This document shows, in pieces, positions 8,878 to 63,497 of a DNA stretch of 64,000 bases. The notes below the pieces were generated by a model that had not been told where the DNA came from, did no database searches, and was given only the letters and a program-made list of their open reading frames with translations. Made by a program: the position numbers and the translations under genes. The stretch is from Paracyclopina nana. Taxonomy: Eukaryota; Arthropoda; Copepoda; Cyclopoida; Cyclopettidae. The first letter of the stretch is position 1. Every line of letters starts with the position of its first letter. The stretch covers positions 4,164,001 to 4,228,000 of the forward strand of contig JAGUCH010000009.1 of NCBI GenBank assembly GCA_019096065.1. Reading direction: 5' to 3'.

Positions 8878-10470
8878 CTACAATCTGTAGCTATATCCCC
8901 ACGAATGCCCTCCAACATTTCCCCTATAAAACGAAACGTATCGATGGTCTCCCGAGCTCCGCCTGCCCAAATTAACCGATTTCACTGGTGGAGGTCTATT
9001 ATGGCCGAATCTGGAGGTCAAAGGTCTGGGCTGAAGGCTGGAAATAACCGCTGAGGCCAAAGTGGGGCCTTGATTGTTAAACAGCAGACTTTTTCTCCTC
9101 TGTCTCAATGGAACTGGAGGAGGCCACACCTTTGCATAAAAATGGTCGTGCCTCTCCTCTGCCACTTTGTTGTCAATGTCAATTTCATTATTGACATCCT
9201 CTTTCTTTTGGCCAAAATCTTCGGGGCTATTATGGTAATTTGTGGCAAAGTAGTAGTTTTTGGGCGCCCTTTGCCTGGGCTCCAGAGATTTGACTATTGT
9301 TGTGGAAGCCTCTGTTGTTGTTGTTGTTATTGTTGTGGTTGGCGCTGTTGTTGTGCTGCGAGCCAAAGATGGCACTTTGTTAATTCCCTCAAAAAATCCC
9401 TCCATGTGGACTGGTGGCCTCTGCTGGCTCTGCTGTTGGTAAGAGTATGAAAAACTGTGGGGCGTGGTGGTAGACACGAAGAAGGAGGGCGTGGCCGTCG
9501 TCGTTGGGAACGAAGGCTCGTCTTCTACGGAAGAATCTTCGTGGTGGTTTTCAGTCGAGCGAAAGTTAGTGAATGGAGCCGCGGTCGTAGTTGACAAAGG
9601 GGGCGTGGCCCTGGCTAAATTGCCAAAAGGGTTAAGAGGAGGCGGGTCGATATCAAAAAGAGGGCGGGGCAGCTCTTCAAGGTTGAAATTCTCAATTGTG
9701 GTTGGCTCAAAGAGGCCACGTGGCGTGGCAGTTAGGGCTGCTTTTTTAGCCATTTTGGGGGGGCGTGGCACTTCCACCAAATTGAGAAACTCCGCCCGAC
9801 GTTCACTGTGAAAGTTCTCCATTTCGTTGATGAACTTTTCCTCGTCAAAGAGGAAGTCTTTGAAGATTGGATTAGCTGCCACCTTGTGCTCCGAGTCTTC
9901 TGGGGGTAAGGCCACGCCCACCCCCGTGTCTGAAGGAATAAAGTCGGGAGGTGGCAATTTTGGCTCACGATAGGGTGCCACATAGTCATCCAAGGGCTTC
10001 CAGGGAGGGTCAAAGGCTTTTCTGTTTGGCGTGGCCCCGCCCCTCAGAACAAGTAAATCCCCATCACTAAGCCACACCTCTTTTGGCTTGAGATTGCCCA
10101 AATCCTGGGCGTTGACCACAGTTCCATTTTTGAGCTTTTCCTGGAAATGCCGTTCCATAAATTGGTGATTGAGCTCTCGTTCCGGAAAGAACTGGTCAAT
10201 CAGGGCATACGGCGAGTCCTTGGAGCTGACGTTCAGGGTGGGGAGAGATTCCTCATTGTTGTCTTTGTTGATGTGTTCATCGTTGATGATCTCGTTTTCG
10301 TTGACGGCCAACCGTTTGCTGTGCCTTTCCAGTCTTCTCCGTTGGCGCTCGCGCCAGTCCCATAATTGGTAGGAGTGACCGGATGTGGCCAAAAAGCTGA
10401 AGATGATCACAAAGATGAGGAGAAAAATGATCAGGGATGAGCGGTTCCTGGATGATGAGATTAGGATCAT
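8878..10470 (-). CDS. Orphan secreted or type II membrane protein, Pro/Thr-rich (530 aa, one coding exon)
   Basis: One uninterrupted reading frame. Residues 12-29 are strongly hydrophobic after a basic/serine N-terminus (signal peptide or signal anchor). Then comes a very basic stretch (RQRRRLERHSKR, 42-53), an acidic/Asn linker, a Pro-rich middle with PPPDF and PRPP motifs (170-290), Thr-rich mucin-like runs (292-337 and 372-391), a second basic site (RQRRK, 456-460), and a Gly/Tyr/Arg-rich end. The two basic clusters could be furin-type cleavage sites. I recognise no domain or family. The ATG directly follows a good splice acceptor (TTTTAATTTCAG), so a 5' untranslated exon probably lies upstream at higher coordinates. 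Long Thr runs put long stop-free frames on the opposite strand (9070-9811); those are shadows. Confidence 0.75.
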   Translation of the reverse strand: MILISSSRNRSSLIIFLLIFVIIFSFLATSGHSYQLWDWRERQRRRLERHSKRLAVNENEIINDEHINKDNNEESLPTLNVSSKDSPYALIDQFFPERELNHQFMERHFQEKLKNGTVVNAQDLGNLKPKEVWLSDGDLLVLRGGATPNRKAFDPPWKPLDDYVAPYREPKLPPPDFIPSDTGVGVALPPEDSEHKVAANPIFKDFLFDEEKFINEMENFHSERRAEFLNLVEVPRPPKMAKKAALTATPRGLFEPTTIENFNLEELPRPLFDIDPPPLNPFGNLARATPPLSTTTAAPFTNFRSTENHHEDSSVEDEPSFPTTTATPSFFVSTTTPHSFSYSYQQQSQQRPPVHMEGFFEGINKVPSLARSTTTAPTTTITTTTTEASTTIVKSLEPRQRAPKNYYFATNYHNSPEDFGQKKEDVNNEIDIDNKVAEERHDHFYAKVWPPPVPLRQRRKSLLFNNQGPTLASAVISSLQPRPLTSRFGHNRPPPVKSVNLGRRSSGDHRYVSFYRGNVGGHSWGYSYRL

Positions 10471-13400
10471 CTGAAATTAAAATGATGACTTTAATTCACT
10501 GTTACAATGGGCCTTTTTTCAAAATGGAGTTTGTGGTTTGATCAATTTTTCAAGGCGAGCTTTATGTAAAATTAGTGAATGTGATGATTTTCTTTCGGTT
10601 TCCGTTAGCCTTCTGTTGAGTGTTGAAGTCGGCTATGATTTGCCATATCAATCTCAATTTGAGGCGGAATAAAACCTTGATGGATTTTTTTTGGCCATTA
10701 AAAGTTTTCTTTACTATTTTGTCGTCTAGGTCATCAACCTTCATTTAGTCATGGCAAATTCTCAACCCCCCAAAAAAGTGATTTTTTTCCTTCTTTTAAA
10801 ATTTTACAAAGTGCTTTGGAAATTGCTTGCAAATCATCGTTTTTCAATGTTTTTGGTGCCATGCCAAATCATCTTTGACGAATTTTTCTGCGTAGCATTT
10901 CCCACAGTGTCCCACAATTTGTCACTCATGGCGCAATTTTTCACGCATTTTGATCATGTTCATTTAGTAGTAGTATATGACAAAAAGGCCAATAAGGCAT
11001 GAAAAGTAATTGTCAAGGAATAATATGCTTTACTTTGTGCTGCATTTTTCGCGATGAAACCGTAATCACATTCGGCTGCGATTCACAGTACGGAAAAAAT
11101 TATGCATGCCTTTTTCAGTGGGCTTAAATGTAACTGAATATATCCTTGAGGGCTTCTTTACAGCATTGTCAAATTTTCCTGAAAATAGGAGCTCCAAGTT
11201 CTATAGAATTCCGGCCTGAATATTATTGGGAATCAGGAAATGCTCCAAGTCTATTTTTGACCGATAAACAGTTTCAGCCAACGAAGAAGATTACATCAAT
11301 AACGCGCTTTGTTATCTTCGCATTATAAGCCACATATGAAGCGGAACTTTTGGTGTGAAGATGATCACGTTTTTTTCAATGGAACAATTGATACATTTTT
11401 TTTTTCAAATCTAACGGACACAAGTTCTTTTATTGTAGAAATAGGTCTAAAAAATGTAATGTTATTTTGTTGAAAAATCGCATTTTTTCTAAGCTTCATT
11501 TCAATTACGAGGAATGCAATTTTAAAGAACGCGTGAAGAGTCTTGACGCACTAATTGCGTAGCTCCAATCAGAGCAATATACCTTTTGCAAACCACAACA
11601 GCGTAGCCCTAATTTTTTTCGGTCTGTCAAGAACGTTTTTGAGCATGCGTACTAATCCATCCTTCAAATTTTTAAAGGGCAATTTATCCCACTGTATGAA
11701 TTGTGCCTTCGTCAACAAAGACGCGAGTTGCGTTCGTTGAAATCACCGAATGTGAAAAACATTTCGTGCGTATCTTTCTTTTCACGCAATGCTCAGCATC
11801 TGTTGAAATGTTGAATTTTTGAAGCCTGAATTTATTTATAATGATCCCATAAAACGAGGTCTCAAACATCAATAAATTTAGCATGTTCGTGACTCGAACC
11901 AAATCATCTTCATAGTCATACTATACATAGTAGTACAAGCATATACAGAAGCATCCCCGGAAACTAGATCGCGATCACGACTTTGAAAATTGTCGCATCG
12001 TCACTTCGTGTTTTCACATTAGCATTTTTCTGGCCCATTATTGCTCTGCTAGTGGTGGGCCACGTGCCATGGTTTTTTATGGCTTGATTTGGCACCTGTG
12101 TGGCCTGGCCTTACCATAAAACTTAATCAAGATTTAACCATGAAAAACAAGTCAAAATTGCTCGAAACTGCTATCAGTGAGGCCTACATTGTTGAGGAGT
12201 GAAAAAGCATGAGAAACTTGCTAGAATCAGCTATTTTTGCGTAAAAGTATGATAGAATGAAAATACTAATTGAGCGCATTGTGTGTGGCGAAAATGTTGA
12301 TTAAGCCAGTTTTATGGTAGGAGTATGCACACGTGGTGGGTCTTTTATCATCAGCGTGTGTGACAATTAAAAAAGGCCCTGAGGTCACATGTGCACACAA
12401 AAGCTCTGATGTTGCCTTGGATGGTGCAAGAGAATTGCGACAATGCACCTTTATCTTGATGGCAATCTTGATGTACTGGCTATTCTTGGATTATTATTCC
12501 ACTAGTACACGAGGAATGTTAATGGGCCTAAATTTACAGCCCACAGCAACTGCAAACTTGATCATCATATTGATCAGTTTTTAACCCCTTTCTAAGGTCA
12601 AAGTCATACACTTTTCTACTTCCACTTTTAATGGCCAATTAACAGCATGCGCGCAAGTGCTACTGATGTATCCACTTGCAATAGTATTTTACGATCAAAA
12701 TAGTCCATTAAAGGGCATAACGACCCTGATGTGGTAGCATTAATTACTGAAACGATTATTTCTGGCTCAAATCAAGCTGCATGACTGGAACTTGATTTTT
12801 TCACCCCTTGCTTTTCTAGATAGTCAATTAAACGTTTATTCAGAGAGTTAAAATTGGGAGTGATGGATGTTGGCCATAAACCTTGACATTGGGCCAATTT
12901 TCTAGTGTACTTCATTCGGGGGACAACTTTGATGAGACTCACGAGCACATAGTGGTGCTCTATAGAGTGTGCCAAAGATTCGAGATTTGTAGTTCTAGTA
13001 TGTGTAGCTCCTTTTGAACTTTGTTTTGGTTAATCAAGTGAATAATCGTTCTTTCTGTGCCCTTTGTTCCCCTAATGTAGCTGGTGCTCAGTATGGAAAA
13101 ACAGGGGAGCAGATTTGAAGGTTAGGGACTTTCTTGTTCACGACTGCGTATAAAGAATCTTCCATATTTTGCAAGCATACCTGACAGTTATGTTTCTCGA
13201 CTTGAATACTGAAAATGTCTGCTACATCTTCATGCTATTCATAATTGGACTCCAATTTTGCAAAAAAAAAATAACTTGATTCTGAATAAAGCTCGCAATG
13301 CACTGGGTATTTGACCGATTTCACAAGTGCCACGAATGGTACACTGTGCTACAAAATATACAGTTCAAAACATTTTCAGAATATTCTTAAGCTATATTTT

Positions 13401-18995: not shown

Positions 18996-21900
18996 ATGGC
19001 TCGCTGGTCATTTCGCTTACGTATCTTGATCTTTTTATCTGCAATTCTGCTACATAAGGTAACGAGAACTAGCTGATCTTCAATTAGCTAAAATTAGCCC
19101 CGTCGCCCTTTCTAAAGATCTCGTCATAAAAACTGCCAAATGGGTTGTAATGCAGCATAAAAAGAGGTCCAAATTCATTTTGGAACTAAGCTAGTTGTAA
19201 GACCTTAAGGTCAGGACTTTGTTGTTGTGCACAAACCTAATCAGAAATGTTGTATATCTGGCCATTGTTTCAAAGCTTCTCTTTTGTGGTAGAAATGCGA
19301 GGGTGTTGTTTATGATGGCACCGTCTGCTATGTTGAGCAATCTGATGTATTTTATGTGGCCCCACATTTCGATCCTGATACGTTGACTCCTGAAATGTGC
19401 ATGGATGGCTGTGCTAATATTGGAGCTGAATTTGTGCTAGCAGGAATCACTCAAGGAAATGTTTGCCTTTGCGGCAAATCCGATGCAGGTACTAAACATA
19501 GTGAAAGGTTGAGTGAGAGCCATGGCAAATGTTGCGTTTCAGGCCTCTTTGAGGTTCCTGCTGGTTCTCCCACCGATTGCACTTTTAGCTGCCCCGGGGT
19601 GACTTCCAATCCTGGAAAATGTGGAGGAATCACAGGAGCTTTTTCGGTGTACACTGCAATCAGCAATAGGCCAAAAATTGTCTCTTTTACCTTATCTCAG
19701 GTAATTGCAAGAGCATATGCACTTTTAGAGGGTTGCTCACTAAACAAATGTAATTTGTAGGCTGGTACAGATATTACCATAAGTGATATTGACACTGGTG
19801 GTGCTTTGGCGTACATCTACTACGAAATTGGCCATGGATCTCTGCCAGTTCGATTCAATGATGCTGTGGCATCCTCTTTTGGTGACATCATTTTCCCTGT
19901 AGGGTCTCTACCAGCTGGTGATCTTTTGGTTACAGGTGCTTTGTGAATTTTAAAAGGGGTAGCTTTATTAAGGCTTGTTTTTTTTCATAGTCTATGCTAC
20001 TGATGGAACTGGAGATATTGTCATTTCTAGCTCCAAAATCATCACTACAGAACGTCCATCAATGCCTTTGAAAGTCAGCTGTCCCATTGTGGCTGAGCCT
20101 GACATATCCTATAAATGTGGATTTTCAAGCATCTCTGGCAGTGGATCTTTGCCTGTTTCCTTTATTGACTCTGCTGATGTCAGCATCATGGACTATGTTT
20201 TAGATTCCTATGGTGAAATCAATTCTCAAACGCACACTTATGTCTTATAAAGTAATCTTTTGTTAGGCGCTGACAAGTTTTCTCTTGGAAAAATTCCTCC
20301 CAGGAGATTTGAACAAATGAATGGTGGACCTGTTCCTCTTTATCCAGAATATTACCCGTCAGCCCCTGTTGTCATTTCCAATAGTCGGGCTCCAGCTTAC
20401 TTAAAATTAATTTTCCTTGAGTGGTTCGGAGCTGAGGTTGGATCCAACCCCCTCAACTTATATGTAAATAGAGTTGAAATAAGTTTATGGATTCAAAACT
20501 ACCTTTCTAAAGGTTTATCAACCTGGCTGCTCCCTAGCTGCTGGTGGGGTTTACAACCCGACAAATGGATTGTGTGAAGTGGCTCATTCAAGAGAAATAG
20601 GCTTAAATAGAGGCTTTGGCACTGAGTTGACCTGTGAAGCAGTAACCTTTAACAACTTGTTTCAAGACTGCTATGAATCCACGTGCTCAGCAACTAACTC
20701 TAGATGCTTGACAAGTGCTGACCAGAGTAATTTCCATTGATTTGTGGGTGAACTTATCTTAGTTTCTACTTCTTCGATTTTTCTCAGGTTTCCCCGATAC
20801 TTACACGTTAATCAGTGGGCCTTATGAAGTGACAGGCACTCCCAGTGATTATAACACTTATTACTATGCTGATTTGTCTACCATGGAAATTACGCTTGAA
20901 CCTGGCCAACTTTTAGCCTTTGATGCAGGCCTTGTTGGATACATGTAAACGTTTGAGTAAATTTATTAGGTCATTGCAGTTTTGACTTTTTATGCTATTC
21001 AGGACCGAAAGTGATCCTTTCAAAGTTGACAGAATGTCAGATTCTGGAGTATCAGCCAATGGAACATACTTTATTCGAGCAATTGGAGTAAAGCCAGAGT
21101 TCCTGTGGTTCGTTTCCACATGCTTCGATGCCAATTCCAATTATACAGCAACACTCTCAGTAGCCATTACTATTTTAATTGCATTTTTTTGCAAGAGTAA
21201 TATATGTTTAAATTAAGGATTTTGGTGGGACAGTTTCTGTTTCCAATGTGACTGTGTGTGAGGATCCTATTGTGAACATGACAGTGACTTTTGTTGCCAC
21301 TGAAACCGTTCAAAAGCCTGAATGGGCTCCCGAGATTTGTGTGAAACGGTCTGAAAATGTGGACATACTCATTGCCACTACCAAAGGGTTTCCAATTACT
21401 TATAATATTTCTTATGATGATGGCAATCCTTTTTTCATTGATGAAGTTATCACATCTAAAGGTACTTAAACTTAACGCTTGTTTTGCCCACTAATTTATG
21501 ATTTGAATCAGCTGATGCACGGCTAATTACAAATACACACAATTGGGCATCGCCTGGAAGATACCAGGTGGACATTTTTCTTGAAAATAGACACAGCGAT
21601 CCTGAATTTGGAAGCGTTGGATACATTCACAATTTCACCAATTTTGTAAACATCCAGGATCCAGTCTTGATCGATTTCGCTGAAGATGTGCTCGACTTTT
21701 GGTTAACTACAGATGGTAAGCCTTTTATAAGCATTATTTCCAGTATGATGACATTGTTTTATTTTTTCAGTGTTTGATTTTAAGCTTATTCTTGACGACA
21801 CAAAGCTACCGCCTACTTCTCCTCATTTCTCATGCATTTGGGGTGATGGCTTGTCAAACATTGATGTGTCCCTAAATGACTCTGATACAAGATTCATGGA

Positions 21901-24900
21901 AGTTGCTGGGGGGTATTTTAACTATCACTTAAATCACACTTATGCAAAGGCAGGGATTTACACCGTGAATTGTACACTCTTCAATATGGTCAGCTCTAAA
22001 TCTTTTTCAAAAGAAGTATGAACTTGTATTGCTTGAAAGCAGCAAAATATTTTACCTTTTTCCTGCTTAGATCATAGTATATGAGCCAATTGTTGACTTC
22101 AAAGTTGGGGTCAACTTTTTTCAAAAGGGGACTCTAAAATTGGTTCCTGGACTTGGAACCTCAAAAAAGATTGTTCCACTTGGGACCCCAGCAACATTCA
22201 CTTTTACATACACAACTGGAACAATTGATAAAATTATTGTCAAAAATGCCAGTGCTCCCTCCACTCCAATTCTTGGGGAATTTCCTGTGGCAGACATATT
22301 CAACGCCAAAAATCTCATAATTAACTTGACATTCCTTGCTGTGAGTATTTTAAGATGAAAGAAAGGTATTAACACTTACAGCTCCAATGTACTTTTCAGG
22401 AGGGAAAATATAACCTGACATTTCAACCATGGAGTAGCGTATCACTTGATTATCCTCCAGTTTTGGTCCCAGTAGAAATAGTTGGTCAAGTTCAAGGAAT
22501 CCTAGTTGATGACAACAGGGTCATCTCCAACAAAGGTGACATCAAGTGGTTCAATATCAAATTCGACTCAGTAGGAGCTGGAACATGTGTGGTGATTGAC
22601 TACAAAGATGGATACAAAGTAGCCTATGGGGCCCAAGAGTTCTGCAAAAGTTGGTCCAGGTCCTCAAAATTGGAATACATCCCTGGATATGAAACCATTC
22701 CCAACCCCTTTGTAATTGACCATGTCTACTATGACTATGGCATGTTCAACGTCACAGCTTATGCACACAATTTTGTCACTGATGTAGAGACTTTTGACGA
22801 CTTGATGGTGATTGTAACCAGTGCTCCATGTAATCCTCCTGAAGTGACTATTCCTTTTAACTCGACCATTGGTACGGCTCCAAAATCCTACTCTATGAGC
22901 CAATCTGTAGCAGTCGGCACCCTCGCAAAGTTAAACTGCTCTGGAGTCATCAGCACCAGGAAAACTTGGGAAATATACAAAGCCATTGTTAATGAAACCA
23001 ACCTGGCAGAAAAATTGACCATTGTGAAAATTGCAAGTGTTGCTCCAGCTACCATGGACAAAGCTGAGCTAATCATACCGGCAAGGGCCCTTTCTTATGG
23101 AGTTTACAAACTGATATTTTTCTCCAGAATGTGGGACACTTCCCTAGAGGATCCAATGTGGACTAGAAAGCTACCTTTTGAGAGAAATGCCTTCACATAC
23201 ATTGAAATAGTTCCATCTGAGCTCACGGTGAAGTTGATTGACTCAACTGCTGATTTGGTAACTCGAGGAAAAGGCCAAACCCTAGTCTTGGAGCCATACT
23301 TGTACAGCTTCGACCCTGATTACCCTCATTTAAAAGTAAATTAGCCCCCACGCTAATGGCAAGTCTAAATGAGCGGCTTTTACATTTTCCTATTTCAGGA
23401 TGTAGGCCTAGAATTTCGTTGGTTCTGCAGAATGATGACTGATCAAAGTACGGGAGAAACTTTTCCCACTGATACAAAAGGTCAACTTCTGTATGACAGC
23501 ATGAACTTAATTACCATTCCTGATGGTAAGCCAGTCAACACCAAAGGAGGCTGTTTTGGAAGTGGACCAGGTATGCTAAGTACTGCAAAAGACAAGTTCA
23601 TTGCAAAAAGTCGATTTTTCCCTCCAGGTGCTATTAATGCCACTGAAGGGTCCTTGACTTTGGACACCAAAGTTTTTCATGACTCAAAAGACAAAATCTA
23701 CGAAATTGTTCTTCAAGTTAGGAAAGACACTTCCTCTTACAAGCCAGGGTTTTGGAGAACTTCTTCCAAAAAGCTGCAAGTGAATATTGTGCCAGGAATT
23801 CCCCCGCTGATGAAAATTCTTTGTGCTGATCCTGCTCTGTGCTTTACCAATTCAACTGGTGATACGTTTATCAATCCCAGCTCCAGGCTTGCCTTGAAGG
23901 CTTCTTGCAGCCTTGATGAGGGGTCAGATTGCACTGACCCGATGACCTACAAATGGGTTATTAGGTCAGCAGATGGTCTAGATCTAACTGCTGAGTTTCT
24001 CAGTAACTCTCCCACTGGCATCAGTAACATTGAAGTGGCAGTTTTCCCAAATTTTTTCAATGAGACCAAAAGTCCAAGATACTTTGTTGGACTCACAGCC
24101 TTCAATGCCTTAGAATCCAAAGGGTCCACTATGATGTTTATCAACATAAACCAAGTACCTTTTGGCGGAACTTGTGAGGTCAATCCGCTGAATGGTGTAT
24201 CCATGGTTGATGATTTCTTCTTGATATGCAATGGCTGGACTGACAAAGAGCTTGGTGATGCAGGCATCAAACACTACTTGGTAACAAGTGTTACTAATGA
24301 CGTGATGTCAACCCTTGCCAAGGTAAACAAGAAATTCGATGGACCACTAGAGATATCTTTGTCAACTGGGGTGCATTATGTCACTGTTGTGATTGAAGAT
24401 CTTTGGGGGGCAAAAACCCTGTACAAATTACCCAATCCAGTTGTGGTTGATCCAGTCAGTGCTGATGACTTTAAGGATTTCATGTCATCAGGGAAGCTTG
24501 ATGAACTTTTGGGGACTGGTGACACTGGTGCGATGTTGATGGCTCTTCAAGCCCAGGCTCAAGTTTTGGCTGACTCGGATGAAACCTTGGTTGAGGAGAA
24601 GACCACTGTAAATGTCGCCAATGTGCCTCTAACACCAGCAGAAGAGGAGTTCAACAAGGCTGCTGCGAAGGGAACCTTAAAAGTGAATTCTTTGGTCATG
24701 CTTAACATATCTGGTGCCGCAGTTACGACCGATTTGTCCAGTGCTCAGATTGTGGCCAAAACTGTTGAAGCTCTGGTGGGCGAGCCACCCTTGCCTGGTG
24801 AAAAAGGAACTGTGGGCCTGGAAGCCACCAAAGCTGCAACAGACATCTTGCAGCAGCTCGTGAATTCCATTGCCAAAATGGAAGGAATTGCTGAGCCCTC

Positions 24901-27900
24901 GGCCATTTTGCCAACCATGACATCCATGACAAATGCTATTGGAACCCTGCTGGAAGGAATCATGGGTACATCGAGCATTTCACCCGATGAAAACTCGAGT
25001 GCTGATGAGTTGTGCTCTCAGCTGTTGCCAATTGATACAATAAGTGCTGATAAACCTGGCGTAGTTGATTACGATACGGATATTGGTGACGACATTGAGG
25101 CCAAAGTCCCTGAAGATCCCCTGGCTCAAAGGTGTGGAGGAATTATTGATGCAGCTAAATTAACTGGGGAGAAAGTTGGCCCTCAGCTCTTAGATATGTT
25201 GGCATCCATGGGTCAAACACTGCTTTCCAAATCAGTGGTCAATGAAGTCCAATTGATTGAAACTCCAACAATCAACATTTATGCAAAGATGTGAATAACT
25301 TATGCTCTTTTTCGTTTTAAAATGAACTGGATCAATTTAATTTTAGGACACTGGGAAAGGAAATGGGCAAAACGCACAAGCTTGGAAACTCAGCTGATGC
25401 ACCATGGGTGAAATTTCCGGATGATTTCTGCTTGGGCCCTTTGAAAAATTCAACTTGTGATACTCCTGCTGGGGTATCGGCTGTAGTATACGACTCAAAT
25501 CCTATGGTATTTTGACTGTAATTGCCACCTGTATTATCAATTACCCTTGATGAATATTTCAGGGAAGCCTGCCTTCGAGTCCAAGATTATCTTCAAATAC
25601 AAAAGTGATTGAAGTGACAGTATCTAATCGAGACAATGTTGTAATTGACATTCGACAAATTTACCATGAGCAAAAGGAAGGTATCCAATTTTTCATACCA
25701 AGGGCCAATAAATCTCGAGAAGGAATGGAGCGTAAGTATTGTTGGTGTCATGCCCAGAACCTTCCATAACAGTTTCTCACAGCTCCTCAGTTTTACAATA
25801 CATCCGCCGTATTTGGACCTTCATACAATAAAACTCAGTATATGATGCATATGATTGAGGTGGGAGAAGTGCATGTGGACTCAGTCATTATAATAGAGTT
25901 TTATCCAATGCAACTTGATACTCACTATGTGCTTCTCTTTGATTATGAGAGGATTCCTACCTACACTGAATTTGAGCATGTTGCCTATGTATCCATACCT
26001 GAGCTCAAGTCCTCTAACAACACAAAGATCAGATGGGACAGTAACAACGATTTCTATGAGTGGTTCCTTGATAACGATGCTGTGGCAAACAGGACAGGAC
26101 GTTTTTTCATTACTGTAGCGACCATCAAGGATGGTGAGATAATCACTTCGAGCGATATGGAGAACAAAAAGTTCGACAAGGCTAAAATGGAAAAATTTTC
26201 TGTGAGCTGTTTCTCAGCCATCACATAAAATTATGATGACGTCTGTCTTTTTCAGGGGGACTACAGTCTTAGAACATTCCACGCCGGATGCTACTACTTC
26301 AATAGGAAACAATATGCATGGGTGGCTGATGGAGTTAAAGTTGAACACAATGAGTACTCTGACACTATTTGCAGAGCATCTCATTTAACCAGTTTTGCGT
26401 CTGGCTTTTTCCCCACTCCCAACACGATTGATTTTGACTTTGTATTTGCTGATGCAAGCCTAACAGACAATATGACCATCTACTTTACCCTCATTGTCTG
26501 TTTGCTCGTGTATGTCTTGCTGTCTATCTGTGCAAGATTTCTGGATGTCCAAGACAACAAAAGACTTGTATCTCTGGCTCTGCCTGACAATAATCCTCAA
26601 CACAACTATTTGTATGAAATCTTGACTTTTACTGGCCATTGGGACGGCTCATCGTGCGATTCTGCCGTCTATTTTGAGCTAACTGGTGACTATGGATCCT
26701 CAGGGGAAAGAAATCTGGATCCTGGTAGGAGGGACACTCTAAGAAAGGGCACTGTTGATAGCTATGTTATGAAAAGTCCCAGGTATGAGAGCCTAGATTG
26801 TCTTTATTTACCTTGTAATATTATGTGTTTGCTATATTAGGCCTCTGGGCTCTCTGAACTACATAAGAATATGGCATGATCACTCAGGAAGGGATGACTA
26901 TGCCTCCTGGTTTTTGAGTGCTGTAATTGTGATTGATCTTCAAACTGGAGAAAGATATGAATTTGCTCTTAATAGGTGGCTAGCTGCTGAAAAAGAGGAT
27001 GGAGCTGTAAGATAGTCATTTGTCTTCTCTACAGTTTTCCATTTCTAATGTGTGTGCATTTTCTAGATTGAGAGGCTGATTCAAGCCTCTGGCCAAAGAA
27101 GCTGCCAGGATATGATGATGCATACAGCAGCAAGACACATCAAAGAAAATCATTTATGGTTCAGTATTTTCTTCAGGTCGCACAGATCAAGATACACTAG
27201 GCTTCAAAGAACAGCTACAGCCTTCACTATGCTATTTTTGGGCATGTTGGCTAACTTGATGTGGTACGGTGTTGTCCCAGAAGAATCAACAAACTTTCAA
27301 ATTCTGAATTTGGCCTTTTCACCAACTCAACTTTACGTTGGCTGCATGGTCACTTTGATAACAATCTTCCCTACTCTTCTGATTGTTTTATTGTTCAAAA
27401 AATCGAGCAGATTCAGGCTCAGACCTAACAGAATTGACACTGCTCTAGAGCGTTCAAACCAGCCAATAAAGAAGAAAAAGGACTTGACTATAGCAACTTC
27501 AGAAGACTCTGGCCTTGGTAAATATTACAGAAGTTAGTAAAACTCATAGCATTCACATGACTTCTTTTCAATAGAAACAAATGATAAAGAAAATGGAAGT
27601 AGCAGTGACTCCTCAACTGGGTCCTCCTCTGATTCCAGCTCAAGTTCAGATTCTGACGAGTCAGGCAGTGAAGAAGAAAACAAAGCTGAAGCAGATAAGG
27701 CAGGATCTGGTTCAGGGTCTAGCTCTGGTTCTGACTCTGAATCCAGTTCGGACTCCAGCTCAGCCGAATCAGAGGGTGAACAAAATGGAAGCAAATCTGC
27801 CAAAAGTAGAGCTAGCACGAAATCAGCTAAAAGTAGAGTTAGCTCAAAATCAGCAGAAAGTGCGAGGAGCTCCAAGTCTGCAAAAAGCAAGAAGAGCCCA

Positions 27901-30520
27901 ACTGCATCGGCCACAAGCAAAAAGAGCAATAAATCAGCTGTAAGCAGAGTTAAATCCTCTAAGGAAGAGACTCAACTCGATAAAAACCCAGATGCTGCTG
28001 TCATTCCCATGGATAATGCTGACAGCAAATATGAGCCTAAGAAAAGAACAAGAAATTTCACCTTGCCCTTTTTCTGCAGATACATTGCTTGGCTCATTTG
28101 CCTCCTCACCATAGTAGCTTCTTGCTTTTTCATTTTGCTTTATGGACTGCAGTTTGGCAACGACAAGACTTATCAATGGTTGGCTTCTTCGATTATTGCC
28201 TTTTTCTTCAGCATGCTATTTGTGGAGCCAATCAAAGTAGCCCTGATAGCTTGTTGTGTTTCTGCAACCTGCAGAAATGTTGATTTGGACAAGGATGACG
28301 ATGTTGAAGATGATGAAGTTGACCCTGAAATTGCTGACTCAGTTGACTGGATCACTGGCGATCTTGAGCCAAAAGCACCATCTGAACCAATTGATGAAGT
28401 GAAGCTGGACATGATAAGGATCAGAAGGCAGAAGGATGTTGAAATGTGGAGCATTGTGAATGAGCTAGCCGGGTTTTTTGTGTTCATTGTGGTCGTTTTC
28501 ATTATGGCTTACCTCAGCAGAGATATCAGCAGCTTTAGGTATCAAAACCAGCTGGCAGACAATTTTGTGTTCAAGAACGGATTTGACAAGGTGGCTACAG
28601 CTAATGATTGGTGGAAATGGATTCATGCAACTGCTGTGACTGAGCTGAAGGCAGCTGCCTGGTACAATGGACAGCCACCATATGGATTACGAGGATTCAT
28701 AGGAGACTTGCAAAGCAGAGTTATGGGATATGGCACACTAAGGCAAATTAGAGTGAGGCCAAATTCTTGCCATGTTCACAAGTTTGTGCTGAATTTGACC
28801 CAAGAGTGTGCTCAGGTACTTGTGATTTTTCTTGGAATCGTTCATGTATGTAATAATACACAATGTTCATTCACTTATTTAATTCTAGCAAACAATTTTT
28901 ATCAATGAGGATGACACAGATTATTGCAATGCCTGGGAAGAGAAGAATCCTCTAACGGAATTCTTGCCATCTTGCTCTAAAGCTGAGTTTAAACACACAA
29001 CTGCTGAAGAACTCAACTCAATGCCTTACTCAGCTCAAATGGACTCTTATGGTGGTGGAGGATATGTTTATCACATTAAAGGGTCCTCGGCTACAATAAG
29101 GACAGGGCTTAGGGAACTGCAGCAGCAAAGATGGATCAACAACCACACCAGAGCTGTATTTTTGGAATTTTCTGTGTACAATGCTAACTTGAACTTATTT
29201 GGAATTGCATCAATTGTTGCTGAATTTATCCCTGGGGGTGGAATCAAGCCATATTGGAGATTTGACCCAGTGAGGCTTCTCCACTACCACTCAAAAACTG
29301 GAACCTACATTTTGATCTGCGAAATCATATTTTGCTTTTACATTCTCTTCTTCACCTACAAATTTATCAGAGACCTCAAATCCATGGGATGGTCTTACTT
29401 TGATTCTTATTGGAGCTTTGCTGATGTAACTATTATAGCAGCAAGTTTTGCTGGCTTTGGAATCTATGCCTGGAGGCTGATTCTCACCAATGAAATTTTG
29501 GATACGTTTGTGAAGACAAAGGGTAATGGCTACATGAAGCTTCAGCATGTTGGATTAATTGATGAAAATTATGGCTACTTGGTTGCCCTCATTCTGTTTG
29601 TGGCAAACATCAAACTCATAAAATTGCTAAGATTTAACAATAGGTAACTATTAGATCATGTCACTGTAAATATTTGATCAAAACACCCTACATTCAAAAT
29701 TAGGTTCAGCCAATTGATTCTTACTTTGAGGTCATGCTGGGATGACTTGTCTGGATTTTTGGCCATATTTTTCCTCCTTTTCTTTGCATTTGTCCAGCTG
29801 TTCTTCATGATCCTTCAGCCAAACCTTGATGATTTCAAATCTATCACAGCTGCTTTGGAAACTTGCTTCACGATGATGCTGAACAAGTTTAAGTTTGGTA
29901 CAATGAAGGAGACTTCAATGACTGCTGCTGTTATGTTCTTCATATTTGCTGTGTCGTGCAGCTTCATTCTCATCAATGTACTCTTGACAATTATCATTGA
30001 AGCATATGAGAAAGTCAAGAATGAGCTTGCTCAAAGAGGCAATGAATATGAAATTCTTGACTTCTTGAAGGTCCATGCAAAACATGTGATTGGTCTGAAG
30101 GAATTGCCACCTAAGGAAAATGCTCTCGCTGATGACTACTCTGGCCTTAGGAAAGAGCAAAGACAAAGGTTGCTTGATGAAGCAGCCGAGGAGGAGGATG
30201 GCATTGACATCAATGCCAAATTGCTGCCAGAAAAGGTTGATCGTTTCTTGGAAGTTGTCAACGACACATACTTCGATGGTGAGTTGACCTGGAGGGACAA
30301 GTTCGACCGTCAACGAATGAAAGCCTGGAAAGACCCTTACAAATACCAAAGAAAGCAATTCAGTGCATTGTTTGGGGATGATAGCGATAGCAGCGAAAGT
30401 GAGGAATCTGATGATGAAGAGGAAAATGGAGCTCCAAAGGAGCCGACTCCTCGGAAGATTTTCAATTCTAGTGATGATGTTGGACGTGGCTCAAATTTTA
30501 CCAAGCATGGTTATTATTGA
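18996..30520 (+). CDS. Polycystin-1-like receptor-channel protein (23 exons, 3362 aa)
   Basis: Exons: 18996-19058, 19293-19700, 19761-19935, 19991-20212, 20267-20463, 20513-20726, 20788-20944, 21003-21159, 21218-21461, 21512-21715, 21771-22015, 22071-22340, 22400-23335, 23399-25290, 25347-25506, 25563-25731, 25783-26201, 26256-26782, 26841-27006, 27067-27517, 27575-28815, 28889-29643, 29704-30520. All phases close; introns are mostly 50-75 bp. Order: signal peptide (1-21); WSC domain with its cysteines (23-150); PKD-type folds, clearest at 680-762 (WGDG, HTYAKAGIYTV); REJ-like region (850-1850); GPS at 2045-2094 with CRASHLTSFA, predicted cleavage between L2088 and T2089; TM1 (about 2118-2138); PLAT (2162-2275, IWHDHSG); TM2-TM3; a Ser-rich cytoplasmic loop (2426-2555); TM4-TM6; an extracellular polycystin domain; TM7-TM11 with a pore region (3130-3160); acidic C-tail. 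In the family such proteins pair with PKD2-type channels on cilia or sperm and act in mechanosensation or fertilisation. Role here is inferred. Confidence 0.93.
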
Positions 30521-30712: not shown

Positions 30713-30718
30713 TTTATT
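30713..30718 (-). terminator. Probable poly(A) signal of the SYGSP/octad-cysteine gene
   Basis: AATAAA on the minus strand, about 200 bases past the stop at 30922. With the signal at 30521 this leaves under 200 bases between two convergent transcripts. Confidence 0.4.
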
Positions 30719-30921: not shown

Positions 30922-33900
30922 TTATCGTTTTCTTCCATATGTGGTATCGGTAACCAACCCTCGATCAGCTGAGCTCCTTAAATCAATCATTTGATTCTCG
31001 TCTTCATAATCATCATAATATTCATATTCTTCTTCTTGGCCTCCAGAAGGTTTGCTGTAGGATGAAAGGTCGTTGGGGTTAAATACGGTTTTCAAGTCAG
31101 CATCTTCCTCGACGGCGGTTGAGGCAGAGTCACTAAGCTCCAAGTCTCGATTGTCGTAGCTGCCTTGAGCCTCATTATCTGAAGCCAAGTAGCTACTGGC
31201 TGATCCCCTTAAATCAATGGCTTCTGTTCCTGAAAGATCTGCAGAAGAATTACTATCAGAGTTCTCAGAATAAGTGGCTTGTGCAGCAGGTGCGGGAGAG
31301 TCATAGGAATCTGCTGAGGGCTCATCCGAATCATAATTTTCAGGAGTGGCATTAAGACCAGATTGAGGGATTTCATTAATGAACAAGGTGTCTTCGTTGG
31401 TATCAGGAGAGGAGCCTTCAGAAGAGTCATAGTTGATTGAGCTGATGGAGTGGGAAGACTCGATGTAAACAGGGATGTTGTTGTCATAGGTTTGTTCAAT
31501 GGAAGCAAAGGTGTTATCGGTGGCTACTCTTTCGGGAGATCCATAGGAGTCAGATGCAGAGTTGACTGAGGGTTGCTGGGGAGATTCGTAAGATTCAGGA
31601 GCTGAATTAACTGCTGGTTGTTGAGGAGATCCGTAGGAATCTGGAGCTGAGTTAAAAGAAGGTTCTGGTGAGCCATAGGTGGATAAGGAGATTTCAGGGG
31701 AGCCATAGGAGGCAGGTGCTGAGTTAACTGAAACCTGAGGGGCACCATATGATTCAGGTGCAGAGTTTACTGAAATATCTGGTGATCCATAAGTATCAGG
31801 TGCTGCAGCTAGCCTTGGGGTGCCAACAGCTGCAATTGGAGAGCCGTAGGAATCTGGTGCTGAGTTAGCCAAAACCTGTGGTGATCCGTATGAGTTGGGT
31901 GCTGAGTTGATAGATGGTTGAGGTGATCCATATGAGTCAGGTGCTGAATTAGGCGAGGCTTGTGGTGATCCATATGAGTCAGGTGCTGAGTTTAAAGATG
32001 CTTGTGGTGATCCATAAGAATCAGGTGCTGAATTGGGAGTGGCTTGTGGCGATCCATATGAGTCCGGTGCAGAGTTTACTGATGCTTGGGGTGAGCCATA
32101 CGAGTCAGGTGCTGAGTTCACTGAAGCTTGGGGTGAGCCATATGAATCAGGTGCTGAGTTAAACGTTGCCTCAGGTGAGCCATATGAGTTGGGCGCAGAG
32201 TTTATTGAAGCTTGAGGTGAGCCATACGAGTTGGGTGCTGAGTTTACTGAAGCTTGAGGTGAGCCATATGAGTTGGGAGCTGAGTTTACTGAAGCTTGAG
32301 GTGAGCCATATGAGTCAGCAGCTGAGTTAACTGAAGGTTGGGGTGAGCCATATGAGTCGGGTGCTGAGTTGAATGCTGCTTGGGGTGAGCCGTATGAGTT
32401 GGGTGCAGAGCTGATTGAAGCTTGAGGTGAGCCATATGAGTCGGGTGCTGAGTTAACTGAAGGTTGAGGCGAACCATATGAATTGGGGGCAGAATTGACT
32501 GAAGCCTGTGGTGAGCCATATGAGTCAGGTGCTGAGTTGAACGTTGGCGAGCCATAAGACGCCTGGTTGAAGGAAGGTGCCGAATTCACTGATACAATGG
32601 CAGGTCCTGAAGATGAAATGGGTACAGCTGAACCTCCATAGGTAGGCTGAGAAGATGATCCTGAGCACTTTTTGCACCAAAAAACAGGTTGGCAAATTGG
32701 ATCTCCACAAGTTTCCCTACAGAAAATACTGTTTAGTAAGCGATTCTAATTTTTAGAAGTAGTGGTGTATCTTACTTTGGTACTGTCCTACATTCCTGCC
32801 TTGGAACAGTTCCGCACTGTTCTCTGGGAATGCTTCTGCAGTCCTGTTTTTCTTGCTGCTTTGGTACAGAGTTACACTCTTGTCTCGGGACTTGAGAGCA
32901 TTGCTGCCTTGGAACTGTGGAGCATTGTTGCCTTGGCACGGTGGTGCACTCTTGTTTTGGTACACTATTGCATTCTTGTCTTGGGACTTGTTTTGGAACC
33001 TTGAAATACATTTTTCTCTTTAGGCCATTTTCAATCAATAAATCTTTCATTATTTAAATTCACCTGTTGGCACTGTTGCCTTGGAATGTTCCTGCATTGC
33101 CTCTCTTCAACTTGTCTTGGCACACTCTGGCACGATTGTTGAGGAACCTAAATAAAAAATATAGGTTAAAGATATCCAATTCATGAAATGCCACAGTCCA
33201 CTTACGCTTTCACACTTTTGTGAGGGGACATCTTGGCATTGCTCTCGTGGAACTGATCTGCAGTTTTGACTTTCAACCTGCTTTGGCACACTCTGGCAGT
33301 TTTGCTTGGGAATTTGTTGGCACGATTGTCTTGGCACCTACAAATAAGACTTCAGTCCTGATCCTTTTAGATGCTGAATTCACTCAGTTACCTGATTACA
33401 GTCTTGTTTGGGCACCTGTTGACAGTTTTGCTTGGGCACAGAAGAGCATTCTTGCCTTGTGGTCTGCTGGCATTGTTGTCTTGGCACGGTTTGGCAATTT
33501 TGCTTTGGTACTTGTTGGCAAGCTTGCCTTGGAACCTGAGATGAGGAAACACTTTATTAGCATTTTAGATGAAATGTATTACATAAAATCTTACTGTCTG
33601 GCATTGTTGTCGTGGAACTGATGAGCATTCTTGCCTTTCAACTGGCTTGCAATCTTCCTTTGGAACATTTCTGCAAATGTTTCTCGGTACCTTTTGACAT
33701 TGTTGCCTGGGAATCTGTTCAAGAGCCCAAATGTTTACTCTTTGCCATTCATCTTCCTCAAAAATCGAATATTACCTGCTTGCAGTTGTATCTTGGAATT
33801 TGGGTGCACTCCTCTCTTGGAACATTTCCACATTGCCTAATTGGAGCTTGGCGACACTAAAATTAAAATATTATAATTAATTTCATTAAGTTATCTTTTA

Positions 33901-35912
33901 AGTTCATTTTGTACTTGTTCGTCTGCGATTTGTCTACAATTGGGAACAGCCACTTGTCTGCAATTTTCAACTGGGACACTTTTGCAGTCCTTTTTGCCCC
34001 CATAACCTTCTTGTCCTCCATCTCCACCATATCCCTCTTGGCATTCGGACACATATTCGGTGGTGCATTGGTTTTCGTACTCAGTTGAGCATCTCTCCTT
34101 GTAGACAGTTTCGCATTTCTCCTCGTACTCAGTTTTGCATTCCTCCTGCTCCACAGTGGAGCATTCCGTTTCAAAGGTTTGCTCACACTTTTGCTCCAGA
34201 ACCTGCTCGCAAACATCTTCCAATTGCTGAGAGCACTCTTGTGCATATGTGGTTTGGCAGTCCTGCTCAGTAACAGTTCTGCATTGTTGCTCCTCCACAG
34301 TGGAACACTGCTGCTCATTAACCGTGGTGCATTGCTCTTCATACGTTGTGGAGCATTGCTGCTCATTCAATGTGGTGCATTGTTGGTCTGGAACTGATCT
34401 GCACTCTTGCTCATTGACGGTGGTGCATTCATTTGAGTAGGTAGTTTGGCAATCTTGCTCGTAGGTTGTGGAGCATTGTTCCTCGTAAGTGGTAGCACAT
34501 TGCTGCTCGTATTCAGTTTGGTAAGTGGGCTCGCACACTTGCTCATTGACAGTGCTGCATTGCCTTTCTGAGACAGTCGAGCAGACTTGTTCATAACTAG
34601 TGGAGCACTGTTGCTCGTACTTGGTCATGTACTGGATTTCGCACTTCTCCTCTTGCACAGTGGTGCATTCGTTTTCGTAGGTGGTATCTTGAACAGTGGT
34701 GCATTGTTGGTCATAGGTGGTTTGGCACTGTTGCTCTTCCACGGTGCTACACTGCTGCTCATTGACTGTCGTACATTGCTCTTCATTGACTGTCCTGCAC
34801 TCCTGCTCGTAAGAAGTTTCGTACCTCGTTTCACATTTCTAAAAATGGAATAATTTGTTGGGGTGAAAAACTCCATAGGAAGGAAAGTGTGTTTACCTGT
34901 TCGTTAACGGTGGAGCACTGCCTTTCGTTGACGGTGCTGCATTCTTGCTCCTGAGTCGTTGTGCACTGGCTGTCACATTCCTGTCCTCCCTGTTGGCAAT
35001 CATCTCCTGTCCTGGTCAAGCTTCGAATCACTTCGCAATTGCTGGAGCTTTGAGCCTCATAAGTTGGCTGGCTGGATCCATATGATGACAGAGAACCTGA
35101 GTTATAACCAGAATTTGAGGCAGGTGCTGCAGGTGACCCGTAAGAGTCGGCAGAATTCGATCCTGAAGGTGACCCATAAGAAGCACCTGCAGGGCTTGAC
35201 TGCGAACCATAATTGTTAAGTGCAGGTGCAGAAGAAGGTGATCCATAAGAGTCAGCTGAGTTCAGGGCAGGTGCAGCGGGTGATCCATAAGAGTCGGCTG
35301 AGTTAAGTGCAGGTGCAGAGGGTGACCCATAGGAGTCAACTGAGTTGAGTGCAGGTGCTGACGGTGACCCATACGAGTCGACTGAGTTGAGTGAAGGTGC
35401 AGCAGGTGAACCATAGGAGTCTCCTGCAGGTGCAGAATTAAGGGAGGGTCCCCCGTAAGAGTTTCCTGCAGGTGCAGAGTTTTGGGAGGGTCCTCCGTAC
35501 GAGTTTCCTGCAGGTGCAGCATTGAACGAAGGTCCTCCATAAGAGCTACCGGCAGGTGCAGAAATGGAATCGATCGTGTTCAGAGATGGCGCTGAAGGTG
35601 CAGCTGACCCGTAAGAGGAAGGTGGTGCTCGTGCGCCTCCTCCATTGGGTGGAGGTGATCCATAAGAGTTTTTGGCAGGTGCAGAGTAGCCTCCGAATGC
35701 AGGCGTCAATCCACCTTGTAACGAGGGAGATCCATAAGAGTCTTGTCTTTGTCTTGGCCTTAGTTTTTGGACTAGATTGGATAGGAAATTCCGAGGTATG
35801 ATTGGGTTGGCATCTGCGGTAACAAGTAGTAGAGTGCTGCACACCTGCAAAGGTAGCAAAAAGAAACTTTACTATTGAGGACATCTTCATCATAATCATG
35901 CACCGCAAGCAT
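30922..35912 (-). CDS. Secreted repeat protein: resilin-like SYGSP arms around an octad-cysteine core (10 exons, 1486 aa)
   Basis: Exons in order: 35912-35904, 35844-34897, 34838-33915, 33856-33776, 33714-33595, 33535-33392, 33337-33206, 33147-33064, 32999-32776, 32716-30922; introns 54-64 bp, all phase 0 except the last. A 3-codon first exon joins to give the signal peptide MLAVCSTLLLVTADA. Residues about 36-265: SYGSP repeats with APAG and SADSYGSPAAPA spacers. About 270-890: one Cys every 8 residues, first as CxTVNEQQ/CxTTYEEQ units (exons 2-3), then as CxxVPRQx units (exons 4-9), well over fifty Cys. Residues 925-1285: about 24 copies of a 14-residue unit NSAPDSYGSPQASV. Then an acidic Ser/Tyr-rich tail ending TYGRKR. 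SDSYG[A/S]P is the motif type of resilin elastic repeats; a cuticle or extracellular-matrix role is inference. I know no named family with this layout. Confidence 0.88.
31525..32560 (-). repeat. Coding minisatellite, 42-bp unit, about 24 copies
   Basis: In-frame tandem repeat inside the last exon of the SYGSP gene. Each 42-bp unit encodes NSAPDSYGSPQAS plus one variable residue. Copies near 32000-32500 are most alike; those near 31550-31800 have diverged (SYGAP, TYGSP, SYESP) and changed length, the usual picture of a repeat growing from its younger end. Confidence 0.9.
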
Positions 35913-35950: not shown

Positions 35951-35960
35951 ACCTTTATGC
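35951..35960 (-). promoter_or_regulatory. TATA-like box of the SYGSP gene
   Basis: GCATAAAGGT on the minus strand about 40 bases upstream of the ATG at 35912, leaving room for a 5' UTR of about 15-20 bases. Short leaders and tiny first coding exons are common in arthropod cuticle-type genes. Confidence 0.35.
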
Positions 35961-38992: not shown

Positions 38993-39392
38993 ATCAATCA
39001 GGGATTCTTTGAAAATCACTCCAAATGAAGAGTACTGTTCTCAGTAATTAATAGCTTTTCCTTTTTTATTGCTCGTAAAAATGTAACAATACTGTCCTGA
39101 TGACGAGTCCATATAGGGTTTTTCGCTCATGAGTAGTCAAATGAAAGATCATCGAGTGGCGAAGCCACGAGTGATCTGGAATTTTACTACGAATCAATCA
39201 GGGATTCTTTGAAAATCACTCCAAATGAAGAGTACTGTTCTCAGTAATTAATAGCTTTTCCTTTTTTATTGCTCGTAAAAATGTAACAATACTGTCCTGA
39301 TGACGAGTCCATATAGGGTTTTTCGCTCATGAGTAGTCAAATGAAAGATCATCGAGTGGCGAAGCCACGAGTGATCTGGAATTTTACTACGA
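38993..39392. repeat. 200-bp perfect-looking tandem duplication
   Basis: 38993-39192 and 39193-39392 read the same base for base as far as I can compare. Each unit holds about 84 bp of flanking sequence, the left arm and centre of the palindrome at 39277-39444, and about 30 bp of its right arm. Only the second copy runs on into the complete right arm. The identity implies a recent event. Confidence 0.85.
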
Positions 39393-39444
39393 ATGAGCGA
39401 AAAACCCTATATGGACGAGTCATCTGGACAGTATTGACATTTTT
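39277..39444. mobile_element. 168-bp near-perfect palindrome (hairpin-type MITE)
   Basis: The left arm starts AAAAATGTAACAATACTGTC and the right arm is its inverted copy ending GACAGTATTGACATTTTT, with few mismatches. The centre is GTGGC-GAA-GCCAC near 39356-39368. The complete element could fold into one long hairpin. It has no coding capacity, so mobility would need a transposase from elsewhere. The family is not recognised. Confidence 0.6.
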
Positions 39445-49221: not shown

Positions 49222-50539
49222 GGGACCATATAAAATGCCCAAACTCGCCCAAACTCACCCAAACTCGCCCAAACTTTTTAATCTTAAAAATTTCAATGCA
49301 GGTAGATCCAGTGGCATTAGCAGAGCAAAAATATATCATTTTTAATGTCCAAATCCAATAGTAAGTACCTAAAAAAGTCATATGGCTGCTATAAAAGGAG
49401 TTTGGGCACAAACTCGCCCAAACCTGCACTAAATCTAAAGGTTTGGGCGAGTTTGTGTTTTTTAAGTTTTTAAGTTAAAACTATCATTTTATGAACAGTA
49501 AAATGGCAAAAGATCTACAAATAGGTTCTGCAGCTTGAAAAACACTTTTCTTGAAAGTTTGGGCTGGTTTGTGCAGGTTTGGGCGAGTTTGTGCCCAAAC
49601 TCCTTTTATAGCAGCCATTTCAATGTTTAAGTTAATAATTAACCCACTTCCAATAGGATTTGGAAGCTGTAACTTTATATTTGGGTTCTCCTCATCATAA
49701 GGGAGCTTTAGGCATTAGAATTTTGAAAATCTAAAGGTTTGGGCGAGTTTGTGTTTTTTAAGTTTTTAAGTTAAAACTATCATTTTATGATCATTAAAAT
49801 TGCAAAAGGTCTACAAATAGGTTCTGCAGCTTGAAAAACACTTTTCTTGAAAGTTTGGGCTGGTTTGTGCATGTTTGGGCGAGTTTGTGCCCAAACTCCT
49901 TTTATAGCAGCCATTTCAATGTTTAAGTTAATAATTAACCCACTTCCAATAGGATTTGGAAGCTGAAACTTTATATTTGGGCTCTCCTCATCATAAGGGA
50001 GCTTTTGGCATTGGAATTTTGAAAATCTAAAGGTTTGGGCGAGTTTGTGTTTTTTAAGTTTTTAAGTTAAAACTATCATTTTATGAACAGTAAAATGGCA
50101 AAAGATCTACATATAGGTTCTGCAGCTTGAAAAACACTTTTCTTGAAAGTTTGGGCTGGTTTGTGCAGGTTTGGGCGAGTTTGTGCCCAAACTCCTTTTA
50201 TAGCAGCCAATCAATGTTTAAGTTAATAATTAACCCACTTCCAATGATTTGGAAGCTGAAACTTTATATTTGGGCTCTCCTCATCATAAGGGAGCTTTTG
50301 GCATTAGAATTTTGAAAATCTAAAGGTTTGGGCGAGTTTGGGCGGACAGACTATTATAAAGTATTCTTTCATTCTTTAAATGACTTTTTTAGGTACTTAC
50401 TATTGGATTTGGACATTAAAAATGATATATTTTTGCTCTGCTAATGCCACTGGATCTACCTGCATTGAAATTTTTAAGATTAAAAAGTTTGGGCGAGTTT
50501 GGGTGAGTTTGGGCGAGTTTGGGCATTTTATATGGTCCC
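49222..50539. mobile_element. Non-autonomous Mutator-like (MULE) element, 1318 bp
   Basis: Begins GGGACCATATAAAATGCCC and ends with the inverse, GGGCATTTTATATGGTCCC. The ends are inverted repeats of 160 bp (49222-49381 and 50380-50539) that look nearly identical. AATTTTTAC flanks both sides exactly (49213-49221, 50540-50548), a 9-bp target-site duplication. Long inverted ends plus a 9-bp duplication fit Mutator-like elements. The ends carry clustered CCCAAACTCG repeats. No transposase is encoded; open frames in the two ends are the same sequence read twice. Confidence 0.8.
49441..50343. repeat. Tandem repeat inside the MULE, three copies of about 296 bp
   Basis: Units start GTTTGGGCGAGTTTGTG at 49441, 49737 and 50033 (periods 296, 296, 293), with a truncated fourth start at 50326. 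Each unit contains GTGCCCAAACTCC..., inverse to the segment at 49391-49430, so the element has nested inverted and direct repeats. Confidence 0.85.
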
Positions 50540-57006: not shown

Positions 57007-57079
57007 GTTTCCATAGCTCAGTGGTTAGAGTATTGGAATGCTGATCCAACAGTCTGAGGTTCAAACCTAGGATGATCTT
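57007..57079 (+). ncRNA. tRNA-like sequence with GCT at the anticodon position
   Basis: Perfect A box TAGCTCAGTGG, perfect 5-bp anticodon stem TTGGA/TCCAA around ATGCTGA (GCT at 57040-57042), B box GGTTCAAACCT, then T-rich sequence. Acceptor and T stems do not pair well, and a serine-type long variable arm is absent. Likely a tRNA pseudogene or SINE head, 97 bp downstream of the other one. Confidence 0.5.
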
Positions 57080-63462: not shown

Positions 63463-63497
63463 TTTTGCCTGCACTTTATTAGCACAAATTCTGATTT

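Follow-up and report, generated by a model that had tools for sequence, protein, structure and literature searches.

The 64,000-nucleotide stretch of the Paracyclopina nana genome analysed here (contig JAGUCH010000009.1, positions 4,164,001 to 4,228,000, termed the window) contains a minus-strand gene at positions 30922–35912 that encodes a predicted product of 1486 amino acids. The central part of this product consists of two arrays of regularly spaced cysteines (Cys), and the order of the spacings in one array is the mirror image of that in the other. The arrays also differ in overall charge, and units at mirrored places covary. The product is probably a secreted structural protein whose two arrays pair antiparallel and in register, most likely as a single hairpin ladder.

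Mirror-image order of two cysteine arrays

The product contains 77 Cys, 76 of them beyond a putative signal peptide. Residues 286–906 hold 75 Cys separated by 74 spacings, 60 of which are exactly 8 residues and 8 exactly 12; after 10,000 shuffles of the residues, spacings of 8 numbered 3.6 on average and 12 at most. A DNA pattern for nine Cys in x7 spacing has 12 occurrences in the window, each of them within exon 3, and none in 100 shuffles. An earlier sequence-only reading had described a block with a Cys at every eighth position. The period is borne out by the 60 of 74 spacings, but the block is not uniform: it is made up of two arrays of unlike consensus and charge with mirror-image spacing, which that reading missed.

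Array 1 extends from C297 to C585 (34041–34965, minus strand, across intron 2) and is composed of 30 units of eight residues (octads) and 4 units of twelve (dodecads). Its consensus is C-S/T-T-V/T-Y/N-E-Q-Q and it is acidic, with 64 D+E and 14 K+R in residues 293–585. Array 2, from C604 to C892 (32707–33986, minus strand, exons 3–10), likewise has 30 octads and 4 dodecads, shows the consensus C-x-Q/S/T-V-P-R/K-Q-x, and is basic, with 45 K+R and 26 D+E in residues 604–896. Between them, at the mirror centre, is a Gly-rich hinge of 18 residues, 586–603 (QEGYGGDGGQEGYGGKKD; 33987–34040, minus strand). Three further Cys are found at the outer edge of each array, C273, C286 and C293 on the N-terminal side (34975–35037, minus strand) and C897, C903 and C906 on the C-terminal side (32665–32694, minus strand). 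These are termed clasps here, and C286 and C903 are at equal distance from the hinge. The exon plans of the arrays differ, array 1 lying in two exons and array 2 in eight (exons 3–10). Introns 4–8 (33000–33775, minus strand) each split an octad two residues past the Cys and in phase 0, and this shared split point suggests exon duplication as the way in which array 2 expanded.

Going outward from the hinge, octads and dodecads follow one another in the same order in both arrays at 34 of 34 spacings. In 36 of 38 Cys pairs the two partners lie at the same distance from the hinge centre. When the arrays are compared in direct order, 26 of 34 spacings agree. The exact chance of a matching mirrored placement of four dodecads among 34 units is 2.2e-5, a value that excludes the added coincidence of equal unit numbers in the two arrays. 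A scan of all mirror axes gave i+j=1189 as the best, with 72 of 76 Cys mapped onto Cys, and in 2000 shuffles of the spacings the best axis mapped at most 56. DNA inversion is an unlikely source of the mirror, because both arrays share the same reading sense and an inverted Cys codon does not encode Cys. Tandem duplication was also considered as a source and set aside, as it would yield direct order.

Mirrored units also covary. In the antiparallel register examined, over 30 octad pairs, position k of an octad lies opposite position 8-k of its mirror partner. Mutual information summed over facing positions is 3.46 as against a permuted mean of 2.45, a score reached in none of 3000 permutations (z 5.15 on repeat). 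Pairing in direct order gives z -0.3, and cyclic shifts by one to six units (twelve registers) give z -1.7 to 2.1. Shuffles confined to blocks of about five units did not reach the score in any of 2000 trials. The covariation is thus not due to a gradient running from one end of the arrays to the other. At the codon level the third bases show z -0.4 and the first two bases z 4.3. The covariation persists with a reduced amino acid alphabet (z 4.95) and when three units with E at position 3 are left out (z 5.2, 27 octads), and it is located in octads 10–29 (0 of 3000). Among the 30 octads the residues that face each other, array 1 first, are V3-R5 in 13, T3-K5 in 6, and E3 with V5 or I5 in 3. 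For V or not-V against R or K, Fisher's test gives P 0.009 in the 24 pairs that have one of the latter two residues, and P stays at 0.37 or above at all 16 shifts. Exact facing (k+j=8) ranks highest of nine antidiagonals, with z 4.95.

A putative antiparallel ladder

In the structure proposed, the two 288-residue arrays would pair antiparallel with residue 1189-i opposite residue i, which would bring Cys to face Cys at intervals of about eight residues. The chain would turn at the Gly-rich hinge and zip outward into a long hairpin ribbon. Its two strands would be joined by about 35 cystine rungs, and the open end could add up to three. With 3.3 Angstrom for each residue, such a ladder would be about 95 nm long. 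Partner and register would be determined by the opposite charges of the arrays together with the matching of rung types, and the charge contrast would make it less favourable for two like arrays to pair. The four-residue extensions of the dodecads, which are found as mirrored pairs only, may act as register marks. Both Tyr-rich arms of the protein would leave the needle at the same end, the open end with three extra Cys per side. Through cross-links of dityrosine or a similar kind, or by entanglement, they could become part of an extracellular matrix, e.g. cuticle or eggshell. The array spacings are all multiples of four, which would place the Cys and the position-4 Pro on one face and at one type of site; in array 2 the Pro at position 4 has the same parity as the Cys. 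At non-hydrogen-bonded sites of a two-stranded ribbon Pro is tolerated, as the backbone NH is dispensable there. The sequence-only reading had spoken of a regular disulfide-capable rod. This carries over in a more specific form, a mirror-programmed antiparallel ladder, in which rod shape, disulfides and secretion are all predicted features. Tissue and material role can be suggested with little confidence.

To our knowledge the nearest fold is that of the small cystine-ladder hairpins. Theta-defensins, tachyplesin and protegrin are short peptides of this type, beta-hairpins with two or three rungs. The likeness would be that facing Cys of an antiparallel pair are linked across the strands. Cys at mirrored positions, as a cystine ladder has them, are found here, and the mirror and the covariation point to antiparallel strands. 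In contrast to these peptides, the present protein would have about 35 rungs, 288-residue arrays, arms, an eight-residue rung interval and mirrored dodecads. On balance, the product would appear to be a single chain that encodes its own zipper and belongs to a new class of structural proteins, with a cystine ladder and mirrored-pair register marks.

The same mirror spacing and covariation are predicted equally by antiparallel pairing between two molecules, array 1 of one with array 2 of the other. The outcome would be a disulfide-laddered dimer or a staggered fibre, in which both ends bear arms. This arrangement is rather unlikely, as an 18-residue Gly-rich linker at the exact mirror centre would suit a turn, and a hairpin is preferred over a dimer on this ground.

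Several observations weigh against the hairpin ladder, or against parts of it. The mirror was seen post hoc, with no prior prediction, and all evidence is drawn from one genomic sequence. The clasp pairs C293/C897 (292 and 293 residues from the hinge) and C273/C906 (312 and 302) are not equidistant. The ten octads closest to the hinge show no covariation when taken alone (P 0.50). Three octads cross the rung types (T3-R5 in 2, V3-K5 in 1), and five fall outside them (Q3-R5, L3-R5, V3-D5, V3-S5 and S3-Q5). The diagonal j-k=2 is nearly as high (z 4.76) as exact facing, and all 49 position pairs summed give z 5.6 as compared with 5.1 for the seven facing pairs. Pairing of units is thus firmer than the register of residues within units. 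Among the facing cells, 3-5 dominates (4.8), and the non-facing cell 1-3 has 4.6. Net charges of mirrored octads show no significant anticorrelation (r -0.21, P 0.14; the same r in direct order), and a score for facing charges is null (P 0.54), with 1 of 4 offset sets nominally significant (P 0.034). An AlphaFold model of 152 residues of array 1 has a mean predicted local distance difference test score of 45, with helices, a best ten-residue block of 78 and no ladder; one array 2 exon gave 57.8, with short helices and likewise no ladder. Neither of the modelled chains contained both arrays, and the alignment rows for array 1 were array 2 exons, which may have misled the prediction.

The low-confidence models and the low complexity of the sequence are also what would be expected if the Cys arrays were flexible, irregular cross-linkers among many chains with no defined ladder, as in other Cys-rich matrix proteins. 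Such a role is improbable here; 34 mirrored spacings and covariation at the protein level would have no evident reason in a random network.

Should the hairpin ladder be correct, it would be possible to read from symmetry and covariation within one sequence how a low-complexity matrix protein folds, and a single chain that carries its own register code could be made into a stiff needle of about 0.1 micrometre. The prediction from the ladder is a sharp one, namely that disulfides join residues with i+j=1189. The mirror scan could be used to seek such zippers in other genomes, and the zippers could be a pattern for engineered fibres.

Repeat arms and related proteins

The core is flanked by arms with SYGSP motifs. 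The N-terminal arm, residues 16–272 (35038–35808, minus strand), consists of SYGSP/SYGGP units and the C-terminal arm, residues 907–1330 (31393–32664, minus strand), of units like NSAPDSYGSPQASV. Of the 30 SYGSP motifs, the N-terminal arm has 9 and the C-terminal arm 21; 20 of 29 spacings between the motifs are 14 residues, with a period of 42 nucleotides at the DNA level. The sequence-only reading had likewise seen such arms at both ends of the Cys core, and exons 2 and 10 each contain arm together with core edge. The chain ends in an acidic tail, residues 1331–1486 (30925–31392, minus strand), with a net charge of -27. Among 18 units of the C-terminal arm, differences by codon position are 0.51 at the third, 0.18 at the first and 0.07 at the second. 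An excess at third positions is expected if selection keeps the peptide. The Cys arrays show less of a contrast, with 0.62 and 0.60 at the third positions as against 0.45 and 0.31.

The arms had been called resilin-type, and a resilin-type cuticle elastomer that carries a Cys insert would account for the 30 motifs, the 14-residue units and the Tyr content of the arms (7.0% and 6.8%). As with resilin and YLP-like motif 2 repeat proteins, the Tyr-centred repeats are evenly spaced and the start of the protein is of a secretion type. One mark of pro-resilin is the Rebers-Riddiford chitin-binding domain. None was found in the Pfam listing with E up to 10 for exons 2, 3, 6, 9 and 10 and residues 1–906, where HMMER filters remove most matches above about 0.1. 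The Gly content is 12.8% in residues 16–272 and 7.1% in residues 907–1330, while resilin has 30–40% according to the available part of PMC5082342. The core is also rich in Cys, and the available part of PMC2932725 gives the absence of Cys as a hallmark of cuticular proteins. With low Gly, no chitin-binding domain found and a Cys-rich core, the resilin label is not supported, and a resilin-type elastomer is an improbable description of the protein.

With regard to tissue and chemistry, an eggshell protein like the insect vitelline membrane proteins is a possibility to be taken more seriously, though still a tentative one; it is compatible with the ladder. Vitelline membrane proteins have a C-x7-C-x8-C motif. 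This motif is not present here, as no Cys spacing of 9 occurs, and the Pfam scan of the same exons and of residues 1–906 listed no match to the VM domain. Some lepidopteran vitelline membrane proteins also lack a VM domain, as described in the available part of PMC9455775. The Drosophila proteins combine the same pair of chemistries, being cross-linked by disulfides first and by dityrosine later (PMC10697589, available part), and the eggshell protein Vml carries many resilin-like repeats (PMC2932725, available part). On these two accounts the statement of the sequence-only reading that no named family joins both chemistries was too strong. The Drosophila vitelline membrane proteins, including Vm26Ab/sV23 and Vml, are alike in having Tyr repeats plus Cys, but differ from the present product, in which no VM domain was found and which has 288-residue Cys arrays with mirror spacing. 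Genes with the annotations pro-resilin and Vm26Ab are present in Daphnia magna (PMC10253896, available part).

The sequence collections searched for relatives are of prokaryotes and viruses and say nothing on arthropods. Relatives of exon 3 were confirmed neither in viral_contigs (3 pattern stretches) nor in genome_contigs (7 stretches). The nine-Cys x7 pattern occurs in at least 120 stretches of viral_contigs, and an open frame covers the pattern in 78 of the 120 loci listed. For the best 60 of 88 matches, DNA identity between units is at least 0.8 in 47, and inspection by eye showed no resemblance to the core in any of the 60. Two viral contigs, L098 (minus strand) and L070 3016 (plus strand), show octads of the type CTFNTGxx, a different Cys-x7 protein repeat. 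Neither an array 1-like nor an array 2-like pattern was present in viral_contigs. In genome_contigs, which was scanned for the array 1-like pattern only, 6 loci were found and rejected, 3 closed by stops and 3 consisting of near-identical octads of other composition by eye.

A tblastn search of phages with exon 3 gave one record with 19% identity (E 0.009), judged to be chance, and a blastn search of plasmids with the whole gene gave no match. The PDB sequence search yielded none for exons 3 and 10, and a match to exon 9 with E 0.014 was taken as chance. Exons 3 and 9 gave only weak matches to PHROGs, the best with E 0.011. Pfam PF22178, the T4 gp5 C-terminal trimerisation domain, was matched below its cut-off (17.7 bits as against 30.9, E 0.0042). 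The T4 domain is a trimeric needle with an eight-residue period; the period is alike, but the trimer is without a Cys ladder. Among the papers listed in literature searches, titles and starts of abstracts revealed no described protein with the same layout, mirror-symmetric Cys spacing not being among the search terms. Relatives may well be present, so far overlooked, in arthropod databases.

Gene model and neighbouring features

The rebuilt model agrees with the sequence-only reading in a single 1486-residue protein with nine introns. All nine introns are GT-AG and 54–64 nucleotides long; eight junctions are phase 0 and one is phase 2, and the frame is kept at every one. The shortness of the introns and the types of repeat would by themselves point to an arthropod, possibly a crustacean. 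All exons are on the minus strand. Exon 1 (35904–35912) encodes MLA and is the least certain part. Exon 2 (34897–35844) is one open frame with the rest of the putative signal peptide, the N-terminal arm, the N-side clasp and the first three Cys of array 1. Exons 3 to 9 are at 33915–34838, 33776–33856, 33595–33714, 33392–33535, 33206–33337, 33064–33147 and 32776–32999. Exon 10 (30922–32716) contains the last Cys of array 2, the C-side clasp, the C-terminal arm, the acidic tail and the stop. A TATA-like box, CATAAA, is found at 35959 (minus strand), 47 nucleotides 5′ of the ATG, and an AATAAA poly(A)-type signal at 30713–30718 (minus strand), about 200 nucleotides past the stop.

The donor of exon 1, GTGCAT, matches 3 of 7 consensus positions, and its intron of 59 nucleotides is in line with the other eight. 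An alternative donor, GTAAAG, would leave an intron of 28 nucleotides. No donor with at least 5 of 7 positions and an in-phase ATG was found within the nearest 2.4 kilobases, and the best in-phase candidates in a search over 8 kilobases are 6.3–6.7 kilobases away. Possible alternatives for exon 1 are this 28-nucleotide intron and an error of one base in the assembly that joins a longer signal peptide.

The weak exon 1, and a model that rests on genomic sequence, could be taken to mean that two or three adjacent repeat genes have been joined in error. This is very improbable. Exons 2 and 10 each hold arm plus core edge in a single frame, and the fusion of arm to core is therefore read straight from open frames; all joins are in frame, and the mirror continues through introns 2–9, where it would be lost if a join altered the length. 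The mirror spacing thus gives independent support to the joins of the gene model. A tblastn search of the window with the model (E 0.001) gave zero matches outside the gene.

The repeat gene is adjoined tail to tail by a REJ/GPS/polycystin channel gene on the plus strand. This Polycystin-1-like gene (19293–30520) shows WSC, REJ, GPS, Polycystin_dom and PKD_channel on successive open frames, which presumably form one gene. On the minus strand, a 532-residue Pro/Thr-rich open frame at 8878–10476 has a signal-like start by eye and no Pfam match at E 0.001. Also on the minus strand, at 61604–63495, the frame 62460–63098 has a match to Flavin-binding monooxygenase-like and the frame 61607–62077 gave none. 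A marginal match to the tRNA family (31 bits, cut-off 29) is found at 57014–57070 on the plus strand, where ARAGORN finds none. Two tandem repeats are present in the window. A duplication of 200 base pairs at 38993–39394 (2.0 copies, 100% matches) is recent or an assembly artefact, and a satellite-like array at 49431–50340 has a period of 296, with 3.1 copies and 96% matches.

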